Assembly (NCBI GenBank): GCA_949290865.1
Contig: CASETM010000023.1
Span: forward strand, 1-64,000
DNA from: an uncultured Bacillota bacterium
GTDB lineage: Bacteria > Bacillota_I > Bacilli_A > Erysipelotrichales > Coprobacillaceae
Reading direction: 5' to 3'
DNA length: 64,000 nt
Made by a program: the position numbers and the translations under genes. The notes below the pieces were generated by a model. That model was not told where the DNA came from, ran no database searches, and worked only from the letters and a program-made list of their open reading frames with translations. This document shows positions 3,463-31,517 of the stretch, piece after piece; the stretch's first letter is position 1; every line of letters begins with the position of its first letter.

Positions 3463-4284
3463 ATGTTTTCAGTTACATCGATCATTCTTGCTTTTTTTTC
3501 CGGAATTTTAGGAACATTTATTGGCGGTACACAGACATTTATCTGTACCGGATTTATTGGAATCATTGTTTCCATACTGGCAGGCACTGGTGTTGATACT
3601 GCTTTTATCAATGATACCGTGCTGAATACGCTTTTTTTACCTTGCATTATTTTCAATGGTGCGGGATTTGCGACAGCATATGCCAGTAAACATCATGACA
3701 TTCGTGGTGTCGAAACATCGCGATCACTGGCTTTTACCAATGATGCCAAAGTGCTTCTTACAGGAGCGCTAGCTGGGGTTTTAGGCTATGTGATCTATGC
3801 GTTTGAAAACTATTATCATTTTTCTGTTGATACAGGTGCAGTATCCGTTATCCTGGTAGGAGTACTAGGTCGTCTGCTGTATAATAAAGAACAGACCTAT
3901 AATGCTAAAAATGTTGATTTCCTCAAAAATGCTGGTTTTGGCTTCTGGAGCTATCAGATCATCTTTGGTATTGCTGTATCAGCTGTCATGGGCTATTTTG
4001 CTAAAGAAACTGGGCTTTATACAATTGGGTTTTCCATCAGTGCTTTTTCACTAATCTTTGCTCTGATTGATCCCGCTTTTCCAGCAACACATCATACGAC
4101 TTTAATTGCTGGCTATGCCATCATGCAGACAGGACAGATTGCTACAGCCATTATCTTTGGCTTGCTGGCACATCTTTTGGGTTTGGTCTTCGGTATGATC
4201 TTTAATACTGACTGCGGAACCCATGTTGATCCACCAGCAGTTGCTATCGCGACATTCAGTTTTATTCTTTTTACCTTTTTTTAG
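3463..4284 (+). CDS. Polytopic membrane protein of unknown function
   Basis: I do not recognise the family. The 273-aa protein is almost entirely hydrophobic, with roughly eight membrane segments broken by small glycine- and alanine-rich turns, e.g. GILGTFIGGTQTFICTGFIGI near the N-terminus (two halves). Polar motifs worth noting lie in the loops: FNGAGFATAYASKHHDIRG around residue 70 and NTDCGTHVDPPAVAIATFSF near the C-terminus. A permease or channel role is a guess. AGGAGG lies seven bases before the ATG and a TATAAT-like box at 3438 precedes it. The gene is alone on the plus strand and its end overlaps the end of spoVAF by 14 bases in convergent orientation. Confidence 0.75.
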   Translation: MFSVTSIILAFFSGILGTFIGGTQTFICTGFIGIIVSILAGTGVDTAFINDTVLNTLFLPCIIFNGAGFATAYASKHHDIRGVETSRSLAFTNDAKVLLTGALAGVLGYVIYAFENYYHFSVDTGAVSVILVGVLGRLLYNKEQTYNAKNVDFLKNAGFGFWSYQIIFGIAVSAVMGYFAKETGLYTIGFSISAFSLIFALIDPAFPATHHTTLIAGYAIMQTGQIATAIIFGLLAHLLGLVFGMIFNTDCGTHVDPPAVAIATFSFILFTFF

Positions 4285-5569
4285 AAGTTTTACAACTTCT
4301 ATTTTTTGGCTTTCTAATAATAAAATCCCACAGTTCCTGACGGTCAAAAGGAATTAAAGGATACAGATAGGAAAACCCAAAAGGTTTTAATGATATCAGA
4401 TAACCATAAAGAAGCAGCTGATAAATGATGAAACCGACAATTCCCGTTAATCCCGTAAACAGGATCATGAAAATTTTGACATATTTATTGGTCAGTGAAA
4501 GTTCATAATTCGGTGTTGCAAAACCACAGACATTGCCAATAGCAACAAACAGTAAAACCTCACCTGAAAAAAGTCCCAGTTCAATCGCAAATTCACCTAA
4601 CAGAATAGCAGCAATCATCCCCATCGTATTAGAAATCGAATCCGGCGTATGGATTGTTGCTATACGTAACAGCTCCACCGCCAGTTCCACAAGTAAAATA
4701 GAAAACAGATTCTTTTTGTCATGTACACCAATATTCATCGTCAACATCCAAACTGGAACAAGATAAACCGACAGAAATACTGCCGTAAAACGAATCATCC
4801 GAATAAATGTTCCAATAATCGGTGTTTGACGATGTTCTTCAACATGTTCCAGTATTTCAAAAAGCGTTGTCGGCAGCATCATAACCGAACTCGATGTATC
4901 ACAGATAATAGCTATATAGCCATGATTGATATGTGTTGCGACGATATCTGGCCTTTCACTGTAACGTACCAAAGGAAAAGGATTATAGCTTTGATCAAAG
5001 ATCAGTTCTTCCAATGCCCGGTCAGACATGACAAGATCTTCATTCTGAATTTCTTTGATCCGCGCCAGAACTTCAGCCAGCATGCTTTGATCAACCAGAC
5101 TGTCCAGATAACACAGACATATATCCAGTTTATGCTTTTGTCCGACTGTCTGTTTGTTCATGACCAGATCCATCGATCTGATCCTTCGCCTTATCAGACC
5201 GACACAGTTGAGTAGATTTTCATTAAAGCCATCCTTGCTGCCTCGTACGGTTTTTTCTGTGTCTGGTTCATCAATTGCTCGTGAAGGATATCTTCTGGTA
5301 TCCAGGACATAGACTTTATTTTCTTCCAGATCCTTAACAACGGCATTCCCTGTCAGCATTGCATATTCATATTTTTCCTGATCATTTTCTTCACTGACCT
5401 GACCATTGTTCAGACAGTCCTTTAACGTTTTTCCTTTAGCCAAAGTAATTCCTTCAACCAGATAAGCAATCAAATCATCCGCACACAGACTCGAAACAAA
5501 ATGAATTTCTACTTTTCGACCACGAAAATCTAAAGTGCGGATATTAATATCAAAAGATTTCGCCGTCAT
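4271..5569 (-). CDS. spoVAF: Stage V sporulation protein AF (GerA-like membrane protein)
   Basis: SpoVAF belongs to the GerA germinant-receptor A-subunit family and is made in the forespore, sitting in the spore inner membrane. The 432-aa sequence has a long soluble N-terminal region (about 1-250, with the usual SLVDQSMLAEVLARI-type helix), then five or so membrane segments including FATPNYELSLTNKYVK, typical of the family. It is the last gene of a spoVAC-D-E-F operon and starts two bases after spoVAE ends. Bacillus SpoVAF is somewhat longer, so this is slightly compact. A stand-alone germinant receptor is unlikely given the operon context and the absence of B and C subunits. Confidence 0.9.
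   Translation of the reverse strand: MTAKSFDINIRTLDFRGRKVEIHFVSSLCADDLIAYLVEGITLAKGKTLKDCLNNGQVSEENDQEKYEYAMLTGNAVVKDLEENKVYVLDTRRYPSRAIDEPDTEKTVRGSKDGFNENLLNCVGLIRRRIRSMDLVMNKQTVGQKHKLDICLCYLDSLVDQSMLAEVLARIKEIQNEDLVMSDRALEELIFDQSYNPFPLVRYSERPDIVATHINHGYIAIICDTSSSVMMLPTTLFEILEHVEEHRQTPIIGTFIRMIRFTAVFLSVYLVPVWMLTMNIGVHDKKNLFSILLVELAVELLRIATIHTPDSISNTMGMIAAILLGEFAIELGLFSGEVLLFVAIGNVCGFATPNYELSLTNKYVKIFMILFTGLTGIVGFIIYQLLLYGYLISLKPFGFSYLYPLIPFDRQELWDFIIRKPKNRSCKTSKKR
4282..4309 (+). terminator. Terminator of the plus-strand membrane protein gene
   Basis: AGAAGTT and AACTTCT pair around TTAC and are followed by TATTTTTT. The hairpin lies inside the 3' end of spoVAF, so the last codons of spoVAF double as a terminator on the other strand. 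Confidence 0.65.
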
Positions 5570-5571
5570 GA

Positions 5572-5922
5572 TTATGACCTCGGTTTAAAAATCACTGCAA
5601 TCAAAAAAGCAAACAAAATAGCCGAAGAAATACCCGCTGCCGTCAAATCAAACATACCCATCGCCAAACCAAAAACACCAAACTCCTCAGTCATATGCAT
5701 TGCTCCATGCATCAAAGAATGTCCAAAACTGGTAATTGGCAGCAAAGCCCCAGCGTGAAAGATCTTAACCAGTTCGTCATAAAAATGAAACAGATCTAAA
5801 AACGCTCCAACGACCACAAAAGTACAGGTAATATGACCTGGTGTCAGCCTGGTATATTCATAAATCAACTGTGCCAGCAGACAAACAAAACCACAAAAAA
5901 GAAAAGACATCAGATAATTCAT
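5572..5922 (-). CDS. spoVAE: Stage V sporulation protein AE (SpoVAEb type)
   Basis: A 116-aa integral membrane protein of the SpoVA channel, which moves dipicolinic acid with calcium into the developing spore and out during germination. It has three to four membrane segments and the family motif HAGALLPITSFGHSLMHGAM. It overlaps spoVAD by 4 bases (ATGA). With spoVAC and spoVAD it forms the minimal SpoVA set; there is no separate spoVAA, AB or AEa here, as is usual in clostridia and relatives. Confidence 0.92.
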   Translation of the reverse strand: MNYLMSFLFCGFVCLLAQLIYEYTRLTPGHITCTFVVVGAFLDLFHFYDELVKIFHAGALLPITSFGHSLMHGAMHMTEEFGVFGLAMGMFDLTAAGISSAILFAFLIAVIFKPRS

Positions 5923-6923
5923 TCTGCCACCTCCAAAGCATAGCCATGACAGACACAGGGAATCGACAGTTTCTGATTGGTCATGACAGGATTTAATAAA
6001 GCACCGGTCGTCAAAAACAGTACCCTTTTATATTTTCCTTTGATCATCTGCTGGTAAATATAACCAAAACTGACAAGAGCGCTGCAGACCGGTCCGCTGC
6101 CTCCCTGATAGACGGGCTGATATTCATCGTATAGCAGACAGCCACAGTCATTGTATTCCTTATACTGCTGATGATCTTCGCTGAGCAGTCTTTCCATGAT
6201 CGTTCTTCCATATCGGGAAAGATCACCTGTTAAGATCAGATCGTAATATGTGCCATCGATCTGCAGATCATGCATATGCTGCTTATAAGTCGCAAAGGCT
6301 GCTGGTGCCATGGCTCTGCCCATATCATTGGCATCGTACTGATTCATATCGACTACTTCGCCTAAGGTTACTGCTTTAACTCTGATTTTTTGCTGCTGTC
6401 TGCCCAGACACACTGCACAGCCTCCTGTTGCAGTAAAAGTTGTTGTATTCTTTCTTTGAATGCCATATTCGATTGGATAGCGAAACTGCCGTTCAGCCGT
6501 TGCATTATGAGAAACTGTACAGGCTATAGCACGATCGATATTTTCATTTTCAATCATTATTGCTGCATTTGTAACAGCCAGTCCCATCGTTGCACAGGCA
6601 CTGTAAAGACCGATAAACGGTTTTTTCAGATGACAGGCATGATAATAGCTGGCGGCCAGCTGATTATTCAAATCTCCACCAAAATAAAGGTCGATATCTT
6701 CTTTTTTTAGCTTTGCTTTGTGCAGACAGAAATAGATGGCATCACTTAACATCTCTATTTCAGCCTGTTCATAGCTGGGATTGCCATGACGATGATCTAG
6801 ATAATATTTATCAAAATACAGTCCTAAAGGACTATGATATTCCAAACGTCCTACGCATGTTCCAACACTTTGGACATAAACATGATCCAACACCAGACTA
6901 TGCCCCAAAAAGCGAGATGACAT
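5919..6923 (-). CDS. spoVAD: Stage V sporulation protein AD
   Basis: SpoVAD is the soluble, thiolase-fold component that binds dipicolinic acid directly and hands it to the membrane channel. The chosen start (ATG at 6923, MSSRFLGHSLVLDHVY) matches the family N-terminus and has GGGAGG upstream; a longer open frame to 6980 has no ribosome binding site. The protein is 334 aa, very close to the Bacillus length. Visible family features are GLYSACATMGLAV with a conserved Cys and TATGGCAVCLG in the core. It overlaps the end of spoVAC by 26 bases. Confidence 0.93.
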   Translation of the reverse strand: MSSRFLGHSLVLDHVYVQSVGTCVGRLEYHSPLGLYFDKYYLDHRHGNPSYEQAEIEMLSDAIYFCLHKAKLKKEDIDLYFGGDLNNQLAASYYHACHLKKPFIGLYSACATMGLAVTNAAIMIENENIDRAIACTVSHNATAERQFRYPIEYGIQRKNTTTFTATGGCAVCLGRQQQKIRVKAVTLGEVVDMNQYDANDMGRAMAPAAFATYKQHMHDLQIDGTYYDLILTGDLSRYGRTIMERLLSEDHQQYKEYNDCGCLLYDEYQPVYQGGSGPVCSALVSFGYIYQQMIKGKYKRVLFLTTGALLNPVMTNQKLSIPCVCHGYALEVAE

Positions 6924-7344
6924 AACGCAACCCTCCCAACACAAAAGAAGCAACGATTCCAAAAGTGATGACCGCTCCACCTAATTTAAAAATATTGGTC
7001 GCAATCCCTGTAACCAGTCCTTCACTTTTTCCTTCTAAAGCACTGGATGTCATTGCATTGGAAAAACCAGTAATAGGTATAAATGTCCCTGCTCCACCAA
7101 TGTTGGCAATTCGATCAAAAACACCAAATCCGGTTAACAGTGCAGCCAGCAGGATAAGAGTAATGATCATAATCGGTCCAGCGTCTTTTTCACTTAAAGA
7201 AAAAAGCTGCTGATACAGATCCAAAAAAAACTGTCCAATCATTCCTATAATGCCACCAAACAGGAAAGCAAAAAAAGTATTCTTTAAAACCTGTTTTTTC
7301 GGTTTTAATTCTTCAGCAATCAAATTATATTTTTTTTCATCCAT
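6898..7344 (-). CDS. spoVAC: Stage V sporulation protein AC
   Basis: SpoVAC is the mechanosensitive channel-forming subunit of the SpoVA dipicolinate transporter in the spore inner membrane. The 148-aa protein has four membrane segments and the signature GAGTFIPITGFSNAMTS, paralogous to the ITSFGHS segment of SpoVAE. It is the first gene of the spoVACDEF operon; GGAGGATAG is upstream. Expression in the forespore from a sigma-G promoter is expected, and sigG is in this window, but I could not assign the promoter boxes with confidence. Confidence 0.93.
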   Translation of the reverse strand: MDEKKYNLIAEELKPKKQVLKNTFFAFLFGGIIGMIGQFFLDLYQQLFSLSEKDAGPIMIITLILLAALLTGFGVFDRIANIGGAGTFIPITGFSNAMTSSALEGKSEGLVTGIATNIFKLGGAVITFGIVASFVLGGLRYVISLFGA

Positions 7345-7431: not shown

Positions 7432-8235
7432 CTATTTTAAAACTCTGGATGTCATTTTATACATCGTATAAACAATCAGTATTCCTGCTGGAATCATGAC
7501 ACATGATTTAAGAATACGCACAAACTGTGAAGCGAAAAAAGGAATACCATACATGACTTCCAGCCAATACGGTGTCAGAAAGAATGTCACGATCAGTTCA
7601 ATCGAAACAACTGATAATACACATAAATGAAAAATATGTCCTTCTTCTTTCTTAAGCTTTGCTTTATAATAACCAATAAAAACAAATAAAATGATCATCA
7701 TACAGGCAATGATGGCTAAAACCATCAGTTTGATCGATAACGTAACCTCATACTGCTGTGAAGAAATATTCACCGTATTCAATCGCCATACATAAATGCA
7801 GGAACTGGCAGAAATAATAATCATAATGATCTTCACGATCATTTCCAGCAGTCTGTCTTTTGTATCATTTAAATATAATTTTAACATGCATGGTATCAAT
7901 GTCTGCAAAACCGTATTTAAGGTAAATCCCAAAAATGGAACCCCCCCTGAAAATGCTAACATCAATCCTAATGCATCAACGGCGATCGCGACAATATAAC
8001 AGTATCCCGGCTGCATCGTCAATCCTGCCACAATCAAAGGCAAGATTTCAAAAGTAATTTTTAAACTCGGCAGTCCTAAAAAAGGCACCATCACCGCCAG
8101 CCTCTTTAATATAATCGCCAGAATGATAAACAGTGCTCCTAAAGTCACCTGTTTCACATCATTCTTTAATGGATATTTATAAAAAACAAATATCCCAATC
8201 AAAACAATAATAACTCCTAATATAATCTGAATCAT
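7432..8235 (-). CDS. folT: ECF transporter S component, probably folate (FolT-like)
   Basis: A 267-aa membrane protein with six to eight hydrophobic segments. The segment ITFEILPLIVAGLTMQPGYC followed by VDALGLMLAFSGGVPFLGFTLN matches the pattern of ECF substrate-binding (S) subunits of the folate family (a membrane segment, then GPxxG/DxLG-like loop and FxGFTL). S subunits bind the vitamin and need the shared EcfA-A'-T module, which is elsewhere. The neighbouring upstream gene is folC, which traps imported folate by polyglutamylation, and this supports the folate assignment. No clear ribosome binding site precedes the ATG, and an in-frame TAG four codons upstream excludes a longer start. The leader holds the repeat array at 8267-8465. 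Confidence 0.7.
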   Translation of the reverse strand: MIQIILGVIIVLIGIFVFYKYPLKNDVKQVTLGALFIILAIILKRLAVMVPFLGLPSLKITFEILPLIVAGLTMQPGYCYIVAIAVDALGLMLAFSGGVPFLGFTLNTVLQTLIPCMLKLYLNDTKDRLLEMIVKIIMIIISASSCIYVWRLNTVNISSQQYEVTLSIKLMVLAIIACMMIILFVFIGYYKAKLKKEEGHIFHLCVLSVVSIELIVTFFLTPYWLEVMYGIPFFASQFVRILKSCVMIPAGILIVYTMYKMTSRVLK

Positions 8236-8266
8236 CGTTCTTGATTGCTACTTCATCAACCAATCG

Positions 8267-8465
8267 TTCCTGCTTCGTCCTCATTGCTAGTCCACAGGCG
8301 TTAATTCCGGTAGTACCGTACACATGTTTATTCCTGCTTCATCCTCATTGCTAGTCCACAGGCGTTAATTCCGATATAAAAAACCGTACATATGCTTATT
8401 CCCGCTTCGTCCTCATCGCAAGTCCACGGGCGTTAATTCCGATATAAAACCGTACACAATTGCTA
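8267..8465 (-). repeat. Three tandem 64-68 bp repeats in the folC-folT leader
   Basis: Three head-to-tail copies are visible: 8267-8330, 8331-8398 and 8399-8465. Read on the minus strand each carries GTACGGT, GGAATTAACGCC, GTGGACT and GAGGAYGAAGC. Copies 1 and 2 have CCTG...CAGG flanking the core while copy 3 has CCCG...CGGG, a compensatory change that argues for a paired RNA stem. The array is bounded by a 9-base direct repeat ATTGCTACT (8244-8252 and 8459-8467). It lies between folC and folT on the transcribed strand and fills almost the whole 265-base gap. I cannot match it to a known riboswitch family. Confidence 0.85.
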
Positions 8466-8500
8466 CTAAAAGTAGACTCTCCTTTCTCTATAATATCTGT

Positions 8501-10126
8501 CTATGAATTTTTGATCTTTTTCATCAGATAAGGTCGCACTTTAGAAATAAAATACAGTGACCCTGTAATCAGTAAAGTTCCCTGATGATCAAAGGCCTCA
8601 TCGATTGCACTGATATAATCTGGTTTCACTTTTACAGGATAATCCTTAGCCAGAAGTGCAGCTTTCTGAGCACGAGGATGTTCAAACTCACAGACAGTTA
8701 TATCATACGTCAATTCCAGTAATCTTTCAATCATATAGTCGGTATCTTTGTCTTTTAATGCCGAAAAAATGATTTTTAGATCATGAAATTTTCTAGCTGC
8801 TCGATACAGCTCATCGACGCCTTCACGATTATGTGCGCCATCAATGATGATCAAAGGCTCATCTCTAAGTTTTTCAAAACGACCAGCCCATTTAGCTTCA
8901 AAAAGTCCATAGATGAGATCATCATCACAAAAGGAAATTTCATTTTTATCTTTAAGATAAAGCAGTGTTTCAATTGCCAGAGCACTGTTTTTAATCTGAT
9001 AAAGTGCTGGTGAATCCAAAATAATATTATAGCCTTTATATGTATATTTCACATTTTCTCCATCCTGGATATCATGAACCCGTTCCACCCTAATCAACTC
9101 ACTGTGATGCTTTTCACAGGTCTCTCTAAAAATATTCAGGCATTCCTGTTTATTTTCACCTGTAATAAAATCAACACCATCCTTGATAATTCCTGCCTTG
9201 GCACTAGCAATACTTTCATAGCTATTCCCTAGATATTCAATATGATCCAAACCAATGTTGGTATTTAGAGCAACCAGTGGATAAATGATATTAGTAGCGT
9301 CCAGTTCTCCACCTAATCCCACTTCAAAAACAGCAATATCGACACCTTTATATAAATAGTACATAACAGCAATAAAAACTTCTATTTCAAAAAGCGAGAT
9401 TTCATATGCCAGCCAACGATCAACATAACGATTGGCAATCGCTACCATAAACTGTTCATCGATATTCTCATCATTGATCCTAATGACATCAAGTCGGGTT
9501 TTTAATGCCGGTGAAGTGAATGTTCCCACACGATAGCCGGCTCTAAGAAGTACTTCCTTGATATAATTTGTAGTTGAACCTTTCCCATTCGTTCCACCAA
9601 TATGAATACATTTCAAGGCCAGTTGAGGATTTCCAAGATCTTCCATAAATCTTTGAAAATTATTCAGACTGTAGACCCGGTCTTTTTGACTGTTAATGAA
9701 ATCATAAACGTCTTCATAATTGACAAACTGCTTTTTCTTTTTCATTTTTTTGATCATTGGCATATATTCTTTGCCATGAATCACAAAAGTTTCCCCATAA
9801 CGCTGAAACCCTGCCTGCTGATACCATTCAAGGTCATAATCAGCATAAACGCTCAGATCATCTTTACATAGATTTTCAGCTGTCTCTATCAGTTTAAAGA
9901 AAACAGATGCTTCACGATCCTGTTCAAGCCACAACAAATAGATATGTGCTTCTTTCAGATCAAAACAGATCATTCCTGTCAGATGATCTTGATCAAACGC
10001 TCCATATGTTAACACCGTTTTTCCATCATTTATTTGTGATAAAAGATGTAAAGCTTTATCTTTTCCAGGAATCTGCAAAGGCAAATCTTTATGCAGCTGT
10101 TTTCCATTTAATAATTTTATTTCCAT
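8501..10126 (-). CDS. folC: Folylpolyglutamate synthase with N-terminal GNAT-like domain
   Basis: The C-terminal 410 residues form a complete FolC, a Mur-ligase-type enzyme that adds glutamates to (dihydro)folate in the cytoplasm: P-loop GGTNGKGST at residues 177-185, the FTSPAL motif and NTNIGLDHIEYLG. In front sits an extra domain of about 130 residues that is not part of FolC. Its order of strands and helices, and YQQAGFQRYGE near residue 102, look like a GNAT acetyltransferase fold, followed by a lysine-rich linker (KKMKKKKQ). Ordinary FolC proteins are 420-430 aa; this one is 541. AGGTGATATT before the ATG supports the long start. It is probably co-transcribed with folT. Confidence 0.88.
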   Translation of the reverse strand: MEIKLLNGKQLHKDLPLQIPGKDKALHLLSQINDGKTVLTYGAFDQDHLTGMICFDLKEAHIYLLWLEQDREASVFFKLIETAENLCKDDLSVYADYDLEWYQQAGFQRYGETFVIHGKEYMPMIKKMKKKKQFVNYEDVYDFINSQKDRVYSLNNFQRFMEDLGNPQLALKCIHIGGTNGKGSTTNYIKEVLLRAGYRVGTFTSPALKTRLDVIRINDENIDEQFMVAIANRYVDRWLAYEISLFEIEVFIAVMYYLYKGVDIAVFEVGLGGELDATNIIYPLVALNTNIGLDHIEYLGNSYESIASAKAGIIKDGVDFITGENKQECLNIFRETCEKHHSELIRVERVHDIQDGENVKYTYKGYNIILDSPALYQIKNSALAIETLLYLKDKNEISFCDDDLIYGLFEAKWAGRFEKLRDEPLIIIDGAHNREGVDELYRAARKFHDLKIIFSALKDKDTDYMIERLLELTYDITVCEFEHPRAQKAALLAKDYPVKVKPDYISAIDEAFDHQGTLLITGSLYFISKVRPYLMKKIKNS

Positions 10127-28080: not shown

Positions 28081-28109
28081 AAAAAAAAGCAGAAAACTTC
28101 TGCTTTTTT
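28081..28109 (-). terminator. Terminator of ileS
   Basis: AAAGCAGAA and TTCTGCTTT pair around AAC with A and T tracts on both sides. It ends at the ileS stop codon. Confidence 0.9.
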
Positions 28110-30850
28110 TATTCAGCTTGTACTCGATGCATGATATCTGCACATCGACAGCACAACTCACCATTCATTTCGCTTTCATCAAAATAATTCCAGCAACGTG
28201 GACATTGGTGACCATTAAATTTTTCGACTTTAATATAGCATGTATCATATTCTTCTAAAGTATCATCTTCAACCAGTTCTACCTTAGCAACAATAAACAG
28301 CTGTTTAAGATCATCTGCCAGTTTAGCCAGATCTTTATAATCATCTTTTAAAGAAACAGTAACTTTTGTTTCCATATTAGATTTAATGATCTTTTCATTC
28401 CTTAAACCTTCCAGTGATTTGAGAACATCTTTTCTCAGATCCATAAATCTGGTAAAGAAAGCAATAATTTCATCTTCATTTTCAATATCCAGCAATTCAT
28501 ATTTTGGTTCCAGGAAGACAGATTCTGCCTTATCATCATCACAATGGAAATGATCATGAAGTTCTTCACTAGTGAATACCAACACTGGTGATAACAGTTT
28601 CATCATTATTTTAGCATGATAGTACAGTACCGTCTGAACCTGACGACGACGTAATGAATCTGATGCTTCAATATACAGAATATCTTTGGTGAAATCCATA
28701 TAGAATGAACTCAATGTATTTGTATAGTAATTGAGAATTTCCTGATTAGCACTGGCAAAATCAAATTGTGCATAAGCTTCATCATAAGTTTTCATCAGTT
28801 CATTCAGTTTCGCCAGCATATATTTATCAACATCTGGAAGATCATTGATTGCAACCAGATCTTTAGCCTTGAAATCATTCAAATTTCCTAAAACGAATCG
28901 CATTGTATTACGAATCTTACGATATCCTTCAGCAACCTGTTTCATAATATCATTAGAAATACGAACATCCTGCTGATATGCAACTGAAGTTGCCCAAAGT
29001 CTGACAATATCTGCCCCATACTGATTCACCAGTTTGATAGGATCAACAGTATTTCCTAATGATTTAGACATTTTGTTTCCTTTACCATCCAAAACAAAGC
29101 CATGAGATAAAACCGTTTTGTATGGTGCTTTACCATGCGCTGCAACACCAATAATCAATGACGAATTGAACCATCCACGATACTGATCGCTACCTTCAAA
29201 GTAAAGATCAACTGGATAATCATACCCTCTTTCAATCATGACACCGGTATGTGAACTTCCTGAATCAAACCACACATCCATGATATCTTTTTCTTTTTTG
29301 AAAATACCATTTGGTGAATGTTCATTCGTATATCCTTCAGGTAAAAGATCTTTTTCATCTCTTTCAAACCAGATATTTGATCCATGTTCTCTAAACAGTT
29401 GAGAAACATGATCAAAAACTTCTTTTTCAATAATTGGTGTCCCATCTTCACAATAGAAAATAGGAATTGGCACTCCCCACGTACGCTGACGGGAAATACA
29501 CCAGTCACCACGTTCTTTGATCATATTATAAATTCTGATATGTCCCCATTCATTCAGCCAGTTGACCTGATCAATTTCATTTAACAGTTTGTCTCTGATC
29601 TTATCTAATGAGCAGAACCATTGATCAGTTGCTCTAAAGATAATTGGTTTTTTCGTACGCCAGTCATGTGGATAGCTGTGAGTAATAAACTCCAGTTTCA
29701 GCAAGGCACCCAATTCATCAAGTTTTAAAGTGACTGTTTTGTTGGCATCATCAACGTACTGTCCAGCCAGCCATTCACCACAGTCATCCATCATGCAGCC
29801 ATGTTCATCAACATTACAGTAGGCTGGCAGACCGTATTTCTGTCCTACAAAGAAGTCGTCAGCCCCAAAACCTGGTGCTGTATGAACGCATCCAGTACCT
29901 GAATCATCAGTAACATGATCACCTAGGATGATCAGTGATTCACGGTCATAAAGTGGATGCTGACAAGTGATATATTCCAGCTGTGAACCTTTATAGTGAT
30001 TGATAATCTGATAATCAGTAATTTCAAATTTCGCCATCAGTTCATCAACCATTGTTTCCAGAACAATCAGTTTTCCCTTTTCGGTTTCAACTAACGCATA
30101 AGTAAAGTTTGCATTCAGACAGATAGCCAAGTTAGCAGGAATTGTCCATGGTGTTGTTGTCCAGATTACAAATGAAACATCATTGTCTAGAATACCTTTA
30201 CCATCTTTCACCGCAAACTTCACAAAAATAGTTGGTGATTTAACATCATGATATTCAACTTCTGCTTCAGCTAATGCTGATTCTGATGATGGTGACCAGT
30301 AAACCGGTTTTAATCCTTTAAAGATCAGACCATCCATCGCCATCTTACCAAATACTTCGATCTGTCTTGCTTCAAATTCATGCTGTAAAGTCAGATATGG
30401 ATGTTTATAATCCGCAAATGTTCCCATTCTGATTAGCTGTTCCATTTGCTTATTGACCTGTTCATGAGCATAAGCATCACATTTTTCCCTGAACTTAGCA
30501 GTATCCATTTCTTTACGGTTAACACCGAGTTTCTGAATGGCATTTTCAATTGGCAGACCATGAGTATCCCATCCAGGAATATATGGTGTATATAACCCCT
30601 GCATATTCTTATAACGACAGATCACATCTTTGATAACCTTATTTAGCATATGCCCCATATGCATGTTGCCATTGGCATATGGTGGTCCATCATGAAAGAC
30701 AAAACTATCTTTTCCTTCATTTTGCTGAATAACCTTTTCATACATATTGCTTTCTTGCCATTTTTTTACATATGTCGGTTCTTTTTTTGGCAGATTTCCA
30801 CGCATTTCAAAGTCAGTTTTTGGCATTAATAACGTATCTTTGTAATTCAT
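28109..30850 (-). CDS. ileS: Isoleucyl-tRNA synthetase
   Basis: Charges tRNA-Ile in the cytoplasm. The 913-aa protein has class I motifs HMGH (in PYANGNMHMGHMLNK) and KMSKS (GNKMSKSLGN), the CP1 editing domain (VIWTTTPWTIPANLAI) and a C-terminal zinc finger with CPRCWNYF and CCRC. The start is the ATG at 30850 behind AAGGAAG; the frame can be read eight codons longer without support. It is regulated by an isoleucine-type T-box just upstream. Confidence 0.97.
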   Translation of the reverse strand: MNYKDTLLMPKTDFEMRGNLPKKEPTYVKKWQESNMYEKVIQQNEGKDSFVFHDGPPYANGNMHMGHMLNKVIKDVICRYKNMQGLYTPYIPGWDTHGLPIENAIQKLGVNRKEMDTAKFREKCDAYAHEQVNKQMEQLIRMGTFADYKHPYLTLQHEFEARQIEVFGKMAMDGLIFKGLKPVYWSPSSESALAEAEVEYHDVKSPTIFVKFAVKDGKGILDNDVSFVIWTTTPWTIPANLAICLNANFTYALVETEKGKLIVLETMVDELMAKFEITDYQIINHYKGSQLEYITCQHPLYDRESLIILGDHVTDDSGTGCVHTAPGFGADDFFVGQKYGLPAYCNVDEHGCMMDDCGEWLAGQYVDDANKTVTLKLDELGALLKLEFITHSYPHDWRTKKPIIFRATDQWFCSLDKIRDKLLNEIDQVNWLNEWGHIRIYNMIKERGDWCISRQRTWGVPIPIFYCEDGTPIIEKEVFDHVSQLFREHGSNIWFERDEKDLLPEGYTNEHSPNGIFKKEKDIMDVWFDSGSSHTGVMIERGYDYPVDLYFEGSDQYRGWFNSSLIIGVAAHGKAPYKTVLSHGFVLDGKGNKMSKSLGNTVDPIKLVNQYGADIVRLWATSVAYQQDVRISNDIMKQVAEGYRKIRNTMRFVLGNLNDFKAKDLVAINDLPDVDKYMLAKLNELMKTYDEAYAQFDFASANQEILNYYTNTLSSFYMDFTKDILYIEASDSLRRRQVQTVLYYHAKIMMKLLSPVLVFTSEELHDHFHCDDDKAESVFLEPKYELLDIENEDEIIAFFTRFMDLRKDVLKSLEGLRNEKIIKSNMETKVTVSLKDDYKDLAKLADDLKQLFIVAKVELVEDDTLEEYDTCYIKVEKFNGHQCPRCWNYFDESEMNGELCCRCADIMHRVQAE

Positions 30851-30873
30851 ATTTTTCTTCCTTTCTATTTTCA

Positions 30874-31060
30874 AAATAAAAACACATCATCTCTAAGGAC
30901 GATGTGATCGCGGTACCACCTTAATTCGTATTTTCATACGCACTTGATATCTTAACGCGATAAACGGCGACTCCTACTTTATTCAAAGCGCTACTCCAGA
31001 GTGATCCATTATAATCCTCGCTGCTGATTTTCACCTGCCATCAGCTCTCTGTAAACTCAA
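30874..31060 (-). ncRNA. T-box riboswitch (tRNA-Ile) of ileS
   Basis: On the minus strand the leader holds the invariant T-box GGTGGTACCGCG (30920-30909) and an upstream stem I region with AGAGAGCTGATGG and a GGATCAC segment whose ATC fits an isoleucine specifier codon. A terminator CACATCGTCC/GATGATGTG followed by TTTTTATTTT lies just before ileS. Uncharged tRNA-Ile should pair with the T-box and prevent termination. It starts directly after the divIVA stop codon. Confidence 0.95.
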
Positions 31061-31061
31061 A

Positions 31062-31517
31062 TTATAAACTGTCTCCTTCATCGTATTTCTCATTCATTGA
31101 TTCTTCGTTCATCAGATTGTAAACTTCAGACTTATCAATAGACTCAAGGATATCTTTTGACATTTTTTCAACTGAAGCTCTAAAACGAACTGCCTGAGCC
31201 TTAAAGTCACTCATCTCATCAGATAACGAACGAACATATTCAAGCGATTCGCTAAGTATCATATTAGCATTCTTTTTCGCTTTGTCAATAAGTTCGCTGG
31301 CTTCTTTTAAAGCTAAACGGGCAATTTCTTCATTGGTCTGTTCCTGAATGTTGACACGATGCTGCAACAGATCTTTCTGTTTCTGCAGCTGCTCAAAATC
31401 ATCCTGCAGTTTTTCGATTCTTTCATTCAGTATCCTGATCTGATTTTCTTTTTCTTCAAGCAATACATCAACCTGTGATTTATTGTATCCTCGAAACTGT
31501 TTACTAAAACGCATCAT
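31062..31517 (-). CDS. divIVA: Cell division protein DivIVA
   Basis: DivIVA binds curved membrane at poles and septa and positions division and sporulation factors. The N-terminal lipid-binding segment FSKQFRGYNKSQVDVLLEE is typical, followed by a long coiled coil (about residues 25-130). The length of 151 aa is normal. GTAGGGAGTG before the ATG at 31517 sets the start; an adjacent second ATG is possible. It follows ylmH by nine bases as in the classic Firmicute ylm block (sepF-ylmH-divIVA-ileS). Confidence 0.95.
   Translation of the reverse strand: MMRFSKQFRGYNKSQVDVLLEEKENQIRILNERIEKLQDDFEQLQKQKDLLQHRVNIQEQTNEEIARLALKEASELIDKAKKNANMILSESLEYVRSLSDEMSDFKAQAVRFRASVEKMSKDILESIDKSEVYNLMNEESMNEKYDEGDSL

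Follow-up and report, generated by a model that had tools for sequence, protein, structure and literature searches.

In other Firmicutes, THF-I riboswitches are found before the folate transporter gene folT, and the TnpB proteins of IS607 transposons are relatives of CRISPR Cas12. The guide RNA of IS607 TnpB, the reRNA, contains the structured RNA RAGATH-18 as its central part, and the TnpB TAM reads 5′-AGGAG in 18 of 22 strains (PMC11061315). The k-turn of RAGATH-18 has been solved and carries the letters UGGA/GAAG, and k-turn rules have been given (PMC8191799). TldR is an exapted TnpB that works with its guide RNA (PMC13418256). In the T4 genes 38 and 25, RNA structure brings a distant Shine-Dalgarno (SD) sequence into reach of the start codon, so that the ribosome-binding site is split (PMC3014915). 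Here we compare these systems with a folT leader that probably represents a relic of an IS607 guide RNA, kept as a cis-acting translational element with a split ribosome-binding site.

The window, a stretch of 64,000 nt from an uncultured Bacillota bacterium, carries three tandem units at 8251–8449, which a repeat search recovered in register with spacings of 64 and 68 nt and with 72–90% identity to the reference copy. The original prediction of three 64–68 nt elements between folC and folT was thus borne out, and the blocks that it had described as shared, GGAATTAACGCC, GTGGACT and GAGGAYGAAGC, are present in all three copies on the minus strand. This is the sense strand for folT, and the units read UGUACGG..AUCGGAAUUAACGCCUGUGGACUAGCAAUGAGGAUGAAGCAGGAA on it. 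The array occupies the 265-nt gap between folC (8501–10126; TIGR01499, E 9e-98) and folT (7432–8235, AUG at 8233–8235), both of which lie on the minus strand. folT encodes a folate-family ECF transporter S component of 267 aa (TIGR04518, E 3e-39), as expected from the predicted location of the array in a folate transporter leader. The N terminus of FolC is fused to a GNAT acetyltransferase domain (PF13673, residues 34–127), an arrangement seemingly common to Thomasclavelia, where tblastn matches begin at residue 36. On the other side, folT is followed downstream by a sporulation cluster of ordinary type on the minus strand (4271–7344), with SpoVAC/AE and SpoVAD as spoVA-type genes and with a germination protein of the GerA family. 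Elsewhere in the window, a T-box leader (30892–31090, minus strand; RF00230, 125.9 bits) directly precedes an isoleucyl-tRNA synthetase-like ORF (28109–30874).

In the folT leader, a single RNA domain occurs three times; its core forms a three-way junction that includes a standard k-turn. Among 37 distinct cores, 96.8% of the cells are paired and 8 of the 12 pairs have changed on both sides, a level of covariation reached by 0/500 shuffles, while controls slid out of register gave at most three two-sided pairs. The P2 hairpin reads CGGU/AUCG, or CGCAU/AUGCG in leader L057; P3 occurs as CCUGU/GCAGG and in four further versions, and a short apical stem is supported as well. The exchange of CCTG/CAGG for CCCG/CGGG, from which base pairing had been proposed, could be confirmed, and in relatives the pair also reads CCCA/TGGG, TCTG/CAGA or CCTA/TAGG. 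All cores have an invariant GGA in one strand and an invariant GAA in the opposite one, which together with an adjacent U-G pair form the exact k-turn signature solved for RAGATH-18. The junction consists of P2, the linker GAAUU.ACG and P3 with a k-turn that has A:G at 3b:3n and G:U at 4b:4n. Single-sequence folding energy was uninformative as a detector of the element, as single copies fold no better than shuffles. The folding energy of the whole leader is likewise ordinary (z 0.48), hence the case rests on covariation. An upstream ORF or coding remnant was considered as well, and we take the translation of copy 3, GTTGINACGLAMRTKQE, to be reminiscent of TnpB C-termini. Since the frame of copy 3 is not conserved among leaders, the unit is an RNA.

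In the MFE fold of the whole window leader, with which the centroid fold agrees, the long-range stems P0 and P1 are formed together with the three P2/P3 cores and a closing stem of core 2. Read 5′ to 3′ on the minus strand, the leader begins with the SD AAAGGAG (8479–8485), assigned by anti-SD pairing and located 243 nt 5′ of the folT AUG, which also fits the IS607 TnpB TAM (AGGAG). The 5′ strand of P0, CUACU (8471–8475), has its partner at 8248–8252 or, locally, at 8463–8467. The proximal framing repeat AGUAGCAAUUG (8457–8467) contains AGUAG, which may enter a competing 5′ hairpin, and the CAAUUG used in P1, as judged by folding and a shuffle test. The 5′ strand of P1, CAAUUGU (8456–8462), pairs with ACGAUUG (8261–8267) and thereby encloses all three cores. 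Core 1 (8399–8456) runs from UGUA through the P2 hairpin, GAAUUAACG and P3 (CCCG/CGGG) with the k-turn to a final AA, and scores 78.8 bits with R1, a covariance model built from folT leaders alone. Core 2 (8331–8390, 79.5 bits) and core 3 (8267–8322, 83.5 bits) both have CCUG/CAGG in P3, and core 2 is closed by the stem GCAUAUGU/ACAUGUGU (8388–8395 with 8320–8327) in the MFE and the centroid fold. The 3′ strand of P1 finds an alternative partner in the distal CAAUC (8243–8247), which shares the distal framing repeat AGUAGCAAUC (8243–8252) with the 3′ strand of P0, AGUAG; CAAUC is here part of a competing 3′ hairpin. The framing repeats noted in the original prediction could be placed at 8243–8252 and 8458–8467.

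In its own genome, the element occurs at one locus only, the window array. A DNA search of 98 related genomes revealed the full triple array in 5/5 other species of the window genus, Faecalibacillus, and, in the rest of the family, a single core in nearly every genus with a good folT orthologue; such single-copy orthologues precede folT, for example, in Thomasclavelia, Massilimicrobiota, Beduini and Eggerthia. The proposed triple tandem therefore holds for one genus and is confined to it, whereas elsewhere one core does the job. In every extracted leader the core lies directly before folT. In a second family of the order, the element was found in three genomes (L057/L116, L117 and L072), again between folC and folT, and thus either predates the split of both families or moved along with the folC-folT gene pair. 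Since folC is not always adjacent, the link of the element is to folT. An exact degenerate pattern scanned in 84,980 species returned 29 records, 27 of which have folT 22–75 nt downstream. One further record (L155) ends right after the element, and as the matching genome contig shows folT there, 28 of 29 records precede folT; the last one (L144) is a guide-RNA-like solo of the TnpB type. This match (~7671–7759 of MAG CSMAG_2492) is reRNA-like with no TnpB ORF in reach and is possibly a solo guide RNA. Named hosts of the element are Faecalibacillus intestinalis, Faecalibacillus faecis, Thomasclavelia cocleata, Massilimicrobiota timonensis, Beduini massiliensis, Eggerthia catenaformis, Longibaculum muris, Dielma fastidiosa and Traorella.

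The covariance search of related genomes, which had been suggested as a check, thus gave matches that cluster before folT and abundant further covariation. Of the two options initially raised, both findings favour a structured regulatory RNA over a scattered intergenic repeat, and mobile scatter is ruled out by the single locus in the own genome and the concentration of the pattern records at folT. An unselected transposon scar, i.e. a functionless dispersed intergenic repeat, would agree with the clear kinship to IS607 described below, but it is hardly credible given that single locus, the conservation at the same gene across two families and the compensatory changes. Moreover, each of the three cores of the window genus is conserved by position, with 91% identity between orthologous cores as compared to 87% within a genome.

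Kinship with the IS607 guide RNA became apparent from the R1 model, which finds the RAGATH-18 reRNAs of IS607 TnpB over the full length of the model with E-values of 2e-11 to 4e-9. In the reciprocal direction the RAGATH-18 model (RF03064) matches the window copies weakly, two of them scoring 25.8 bits (E 0.008) and 23.0 bits and thus falling under the gathering score of 44.9 bits; genome-wide, it also finds the Traorella folT leader at E 7.5e-4. In a class-level sample of 395 genomes and a phylum-level sample of 392, all R1 matches at E ≤ 0.001 are located at folT or are guide-RNA-like. Inspection of 13 such non-folT loci identified a TnpB-like ORF directly upstream in 10, a contig edge in one and an unclear situation in two. 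The reRNAs of the same order possess the same junction, extended 5′ by a P2 hairpin that lies outside the Rfam model. When leaders and reRNAs are aligned jointly, 12/12 pairs show two-sided changes and 97.6% of the cells are paired, which 0/500 shuffles reach, in an alignment that was fitted to the structure and thus leans towards it. Both groups of RNAs have the letters UAC.G...GGAAUU.A.G.CUGUGGA...GAAGCAG.AA and the 3′ end GAGUAGCA in common. Descent of the folT leader from the IS607 reRNA scaffold is hence well supported. The reverse, an origin of the reRNA from the folT leader, is less likely because reRNAs have been reported from seven phyla and the leader from one order. The alternatives of a regulatory RNA and a repeat family are therefore not mutually exclusive, since the RNA shares its ancestry with a guide-RNA scaffold that belongs to a mobile element. 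One genome (G161) was seen to contain nine RAGATH-18 copies.

No tnpB is present directly upstream of the window array, where folC stands, and no OrfB/TnpB domain was detected in the window genome, which is 99% complete, or in many relatives that carry the element. The 3′ flanking stem-loops and the guide after the right end are absent as well; only some tens of nucleotides lead from the core to AGUAGCA, which resembles the right end, and the folT start follows. These observations bear on the idea that a TnpB-like protein binds the core in trans and represses or activates folT in the manner of TldR. TnpB-derived RNA-guided regulators of this type exist (PMC13418256) and the core has retained the letters of the reRNA, but without an OrfB/TnpB protein in these genomes, and with the 3′ reRNA hairpins and the PK1 partner missing, we consider such a binder very improbable. 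For the window genome, TnpB in trans is rejected.

The window folT has no SD within 21 nt of its AUG, in line with the lack of a clear ribosome-binding site noted originally, and the strong AAAGGAG lies on the far side of the array. The anti-SD pairing amounts to −9.0 kcal/mol at 8479–8485 and −1.5 kcal/mol next to the AUG. On average, the leaders reach −0.6 kcal/mol within 21 nt of the AUG compared to −10.7 kcal/mol at their 5′ end, with −7.0 kcal/mol as the average of 47 other window genes serving as control. A near-AUG SD is missing in all leaders except one. The leaders thus lack a normally spaced SD, have one further upstream and carry structure in between, and split-site translation of folT is likely. 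P0 is positioned just after the SD and ~9–12 nt before the AUG, and the span from SD to AUG is 100–243 nt. Cognate arms of P0 and P1 pair better than arms of other species or shuffled arms (0/300 each). As most P0 pairs are invariant (CUAC/GUAG), support for P0 rests on the more divergent leaders.

Both stems face local competitors. A 5′ hairpin captures the first strand of P0, and a 3′ hairpin captures the last strand of P1 and holds the last strand of P0; in 22 leaders, both hairpins are more stable than those of shuffles (0/500 each). Divergent leaders form them with other letters, namely GUCUA/UAGAC in L117, GCCU/AGGC in L051 and a long 3′ hairpin in L044. In some single-core leaders, the local hairpins win over P0/P1 in the MFE, which leaves out tertiary stabilisation. 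P0 is missing from the leader of Eggerthia (L031), where the SD abuts P1 directly, resulting in the layout SD-P1-core-P1-AUG. In Traorella (L072, 1490–1566), the core is found without an upstream SD; instead, the SD AGGAAAGGA follows right after P3, next to the AUG, and the stretch between SD and AUG may be covered by a P1; this layout is the reverse of that in the other leaders. Folding of the Traorella element would more naturally turn translation off. Since Eggerthia and Traorella depart in this way, the polarity may differ between lineages. A transcription attenuator was ruled out as no terminator-like site is present in the leader.

The displaced SD could also be read as the trace of a passive bridge, in which the relic merely holds SD and AUG together with no regulation and its loss would kill folT translation. 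The displacement in all leaders but one, the conservation of P0 and P1, the reduced layout of Eggerthia and the precedent of T4 genes 38 and 25 are all consistent with this. For such a bridge, however, stems would suffice, yet two families have kept the letters of the junction and the k-turn nearly unchanged, the competing hairpins exceed chance and Traorella still has the core despite a normal SD. We thus hold a purely passive role to be unlikely and prefer a two-state translational element in which the folded core is the ON state.

The history of this element may be found in the insertion behaviour of IS607. The TAM AGGAG is at the same time a Shine-Dalgarno sequence, and the five intact IS607s examined in the order start directly behind AGGAG. 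For 10 of 13 IS607 right ends (GAGURGCAG), a start codon with an open frame of at least 40 codons lies within 15 nt, as compared to 16% of random sites. IS607s of this order (L099–L103, L062–L083) are preferentially located inside SD sequences directly before start codons, so each insertion should split a ribosome-binding site. The folT leaders have the layout AAGGAG, element, AGUAGCA, few nucleotides, AUG; the 5′ border is AGGAG or its variant AGGGG in every leader with P0, as a TAM would be, and the distal repeat AGUAGCAAUC corresponds to the IS607 right end GAGUAGCAG. Homology of the leader 5′ ends to IS607 left ends was seen by eye only and was discarded as too weak. In the simplest history, a single IS607 would have inserted into the ribosome-binding site of folT, and its protein genes would have disappeared afterwards. 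The insertion would have taken place in a common ancestor of two or more families of the order, behind an AGGAG that served the transposon as TAM and folT as SD. Besides tnpA and tnpB, the outer hairpins of the reRNA would have been lost, while the core with its three-way junction and k-turn would have been retained, together with the right end GAGUAGCA, as a cis-acting translational element; in the window genus, the core was presumably triplicated.

A new class of metabolite riboswitch would agree with this descent and would in addition require a ligand, e.g. a tetrahydrofolate or a folate-shortage signal, with the core as ligand pocket and the rest as expression platform. It would explain the strict link to a folate S component, a function served elsewhere by THF riboswitches, a conservation of the junction letters (GUACGG, GAAUUAACG) that is close to invariance and exceeds the demands of pairing, the two-state competing stems, the tandem cores known from other riboswitches as well, and the retention of the core in Traorella despite the moved SD. 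On the other hand, the invariant letters are largely shared with reRNAs and could be inherited scaffold requirements, and there is no match to an Rfam riboswitch: cmscan of the window leader and 15 further loci, at gathering and permissive E-values, gave only RAGATH-18 above noise in the leaders, so that THF-I, THF-II and any other known riboswitch were dismissed. A search of the own genome with RF01831 returned no match, its control being likewise silent. We regard a new riboswitch class as a serious possibility, albeit one somewhat short of probable.

For the favoured two-state element, folding of the core would allow P1 and P0 (CUACU/AGUAG) to close, by which the distant SD would meet the AUG and translation would be on. 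In the alternative fold, the stem halves would be held by the local 5′ and 3′ hairpins, the SD would be stranded and translation would be off. Both the switching and its direction are read from these mutually exclusive pairings, and the balance may be set by whatever stabilises the core. A protein or Mg2+ alone could do so, as could a ligand, for which folate or a signal of folate shortage would be the obvious guesses. The most far-reaching version, a protein-free riboswitch that arose from the guide RNA of TnpB, a Cas12 ancestor, captured between SD and start codon, switches by distance under ligand control and carries a triple aptamer in Faecalibacillus, is rather doubtful and put forward tentatively.

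If true, the guide RNA has outlived its nuclease and now acts as a cis-regulatory domain of an mRNA. In the open-access literature searched, no such origin of new regulatory RNAs seems to have been described. It would also provide a natural expression platform that acts by the SD-AUG distance and not by SD masking, and the preference of IS607 for AGGAG would explain how such captures begin. For gut Erysipelotrichales, the element would be a candidate regulator of folate uptake that is directly testable.

The components of the element, a k-turn junction, a split ribosome-binding site and a folate leader, are of known kinds; as far as we searched the open-access literature, their combination in a TnpB-free guide-RNA relic has not been described. 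Like THF-I (RF01831) and THF-II, it is a structured leader of a folate gene, but it matches neither in sequence nor by covariance model. With the T4 genes 38 and 25 it shares an SD-AUG distance that is too great and an intervening structure that can close the gap (PMC3014915). This distance is 22–27 nt in T4 as compared to ~100–243 nt in the folT leaders, and the simple hairpin there contrasts with a complex domain with competing folds here. TldR likewise represents the recruitment of a TnpB-family guide RNA for the regulation of a host or phage gene, but there the protein is still present and the action is in trans, on DNA (PMC13418256), whereas at folT the protein is gone and the RNA lies within the mRNA. 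Closest is the RAGATH-18 reRNA itself (RF03064; PMC11061315), with which the folT element has the P2 hairpin, the linker GAAUU.ACG and the k-turn signature of P3 in common, as well as the right end GAGUAGCA and the 5′-border AGGAG. It differs from the reRNA by an apical arm cut from ~50 nt to ~7 nt, by the lack of tnpB and of the 3′ flanking hairpins, by a score below the Rfam gathering value, and by its place in an mRNA leader, in tandem in one genus.
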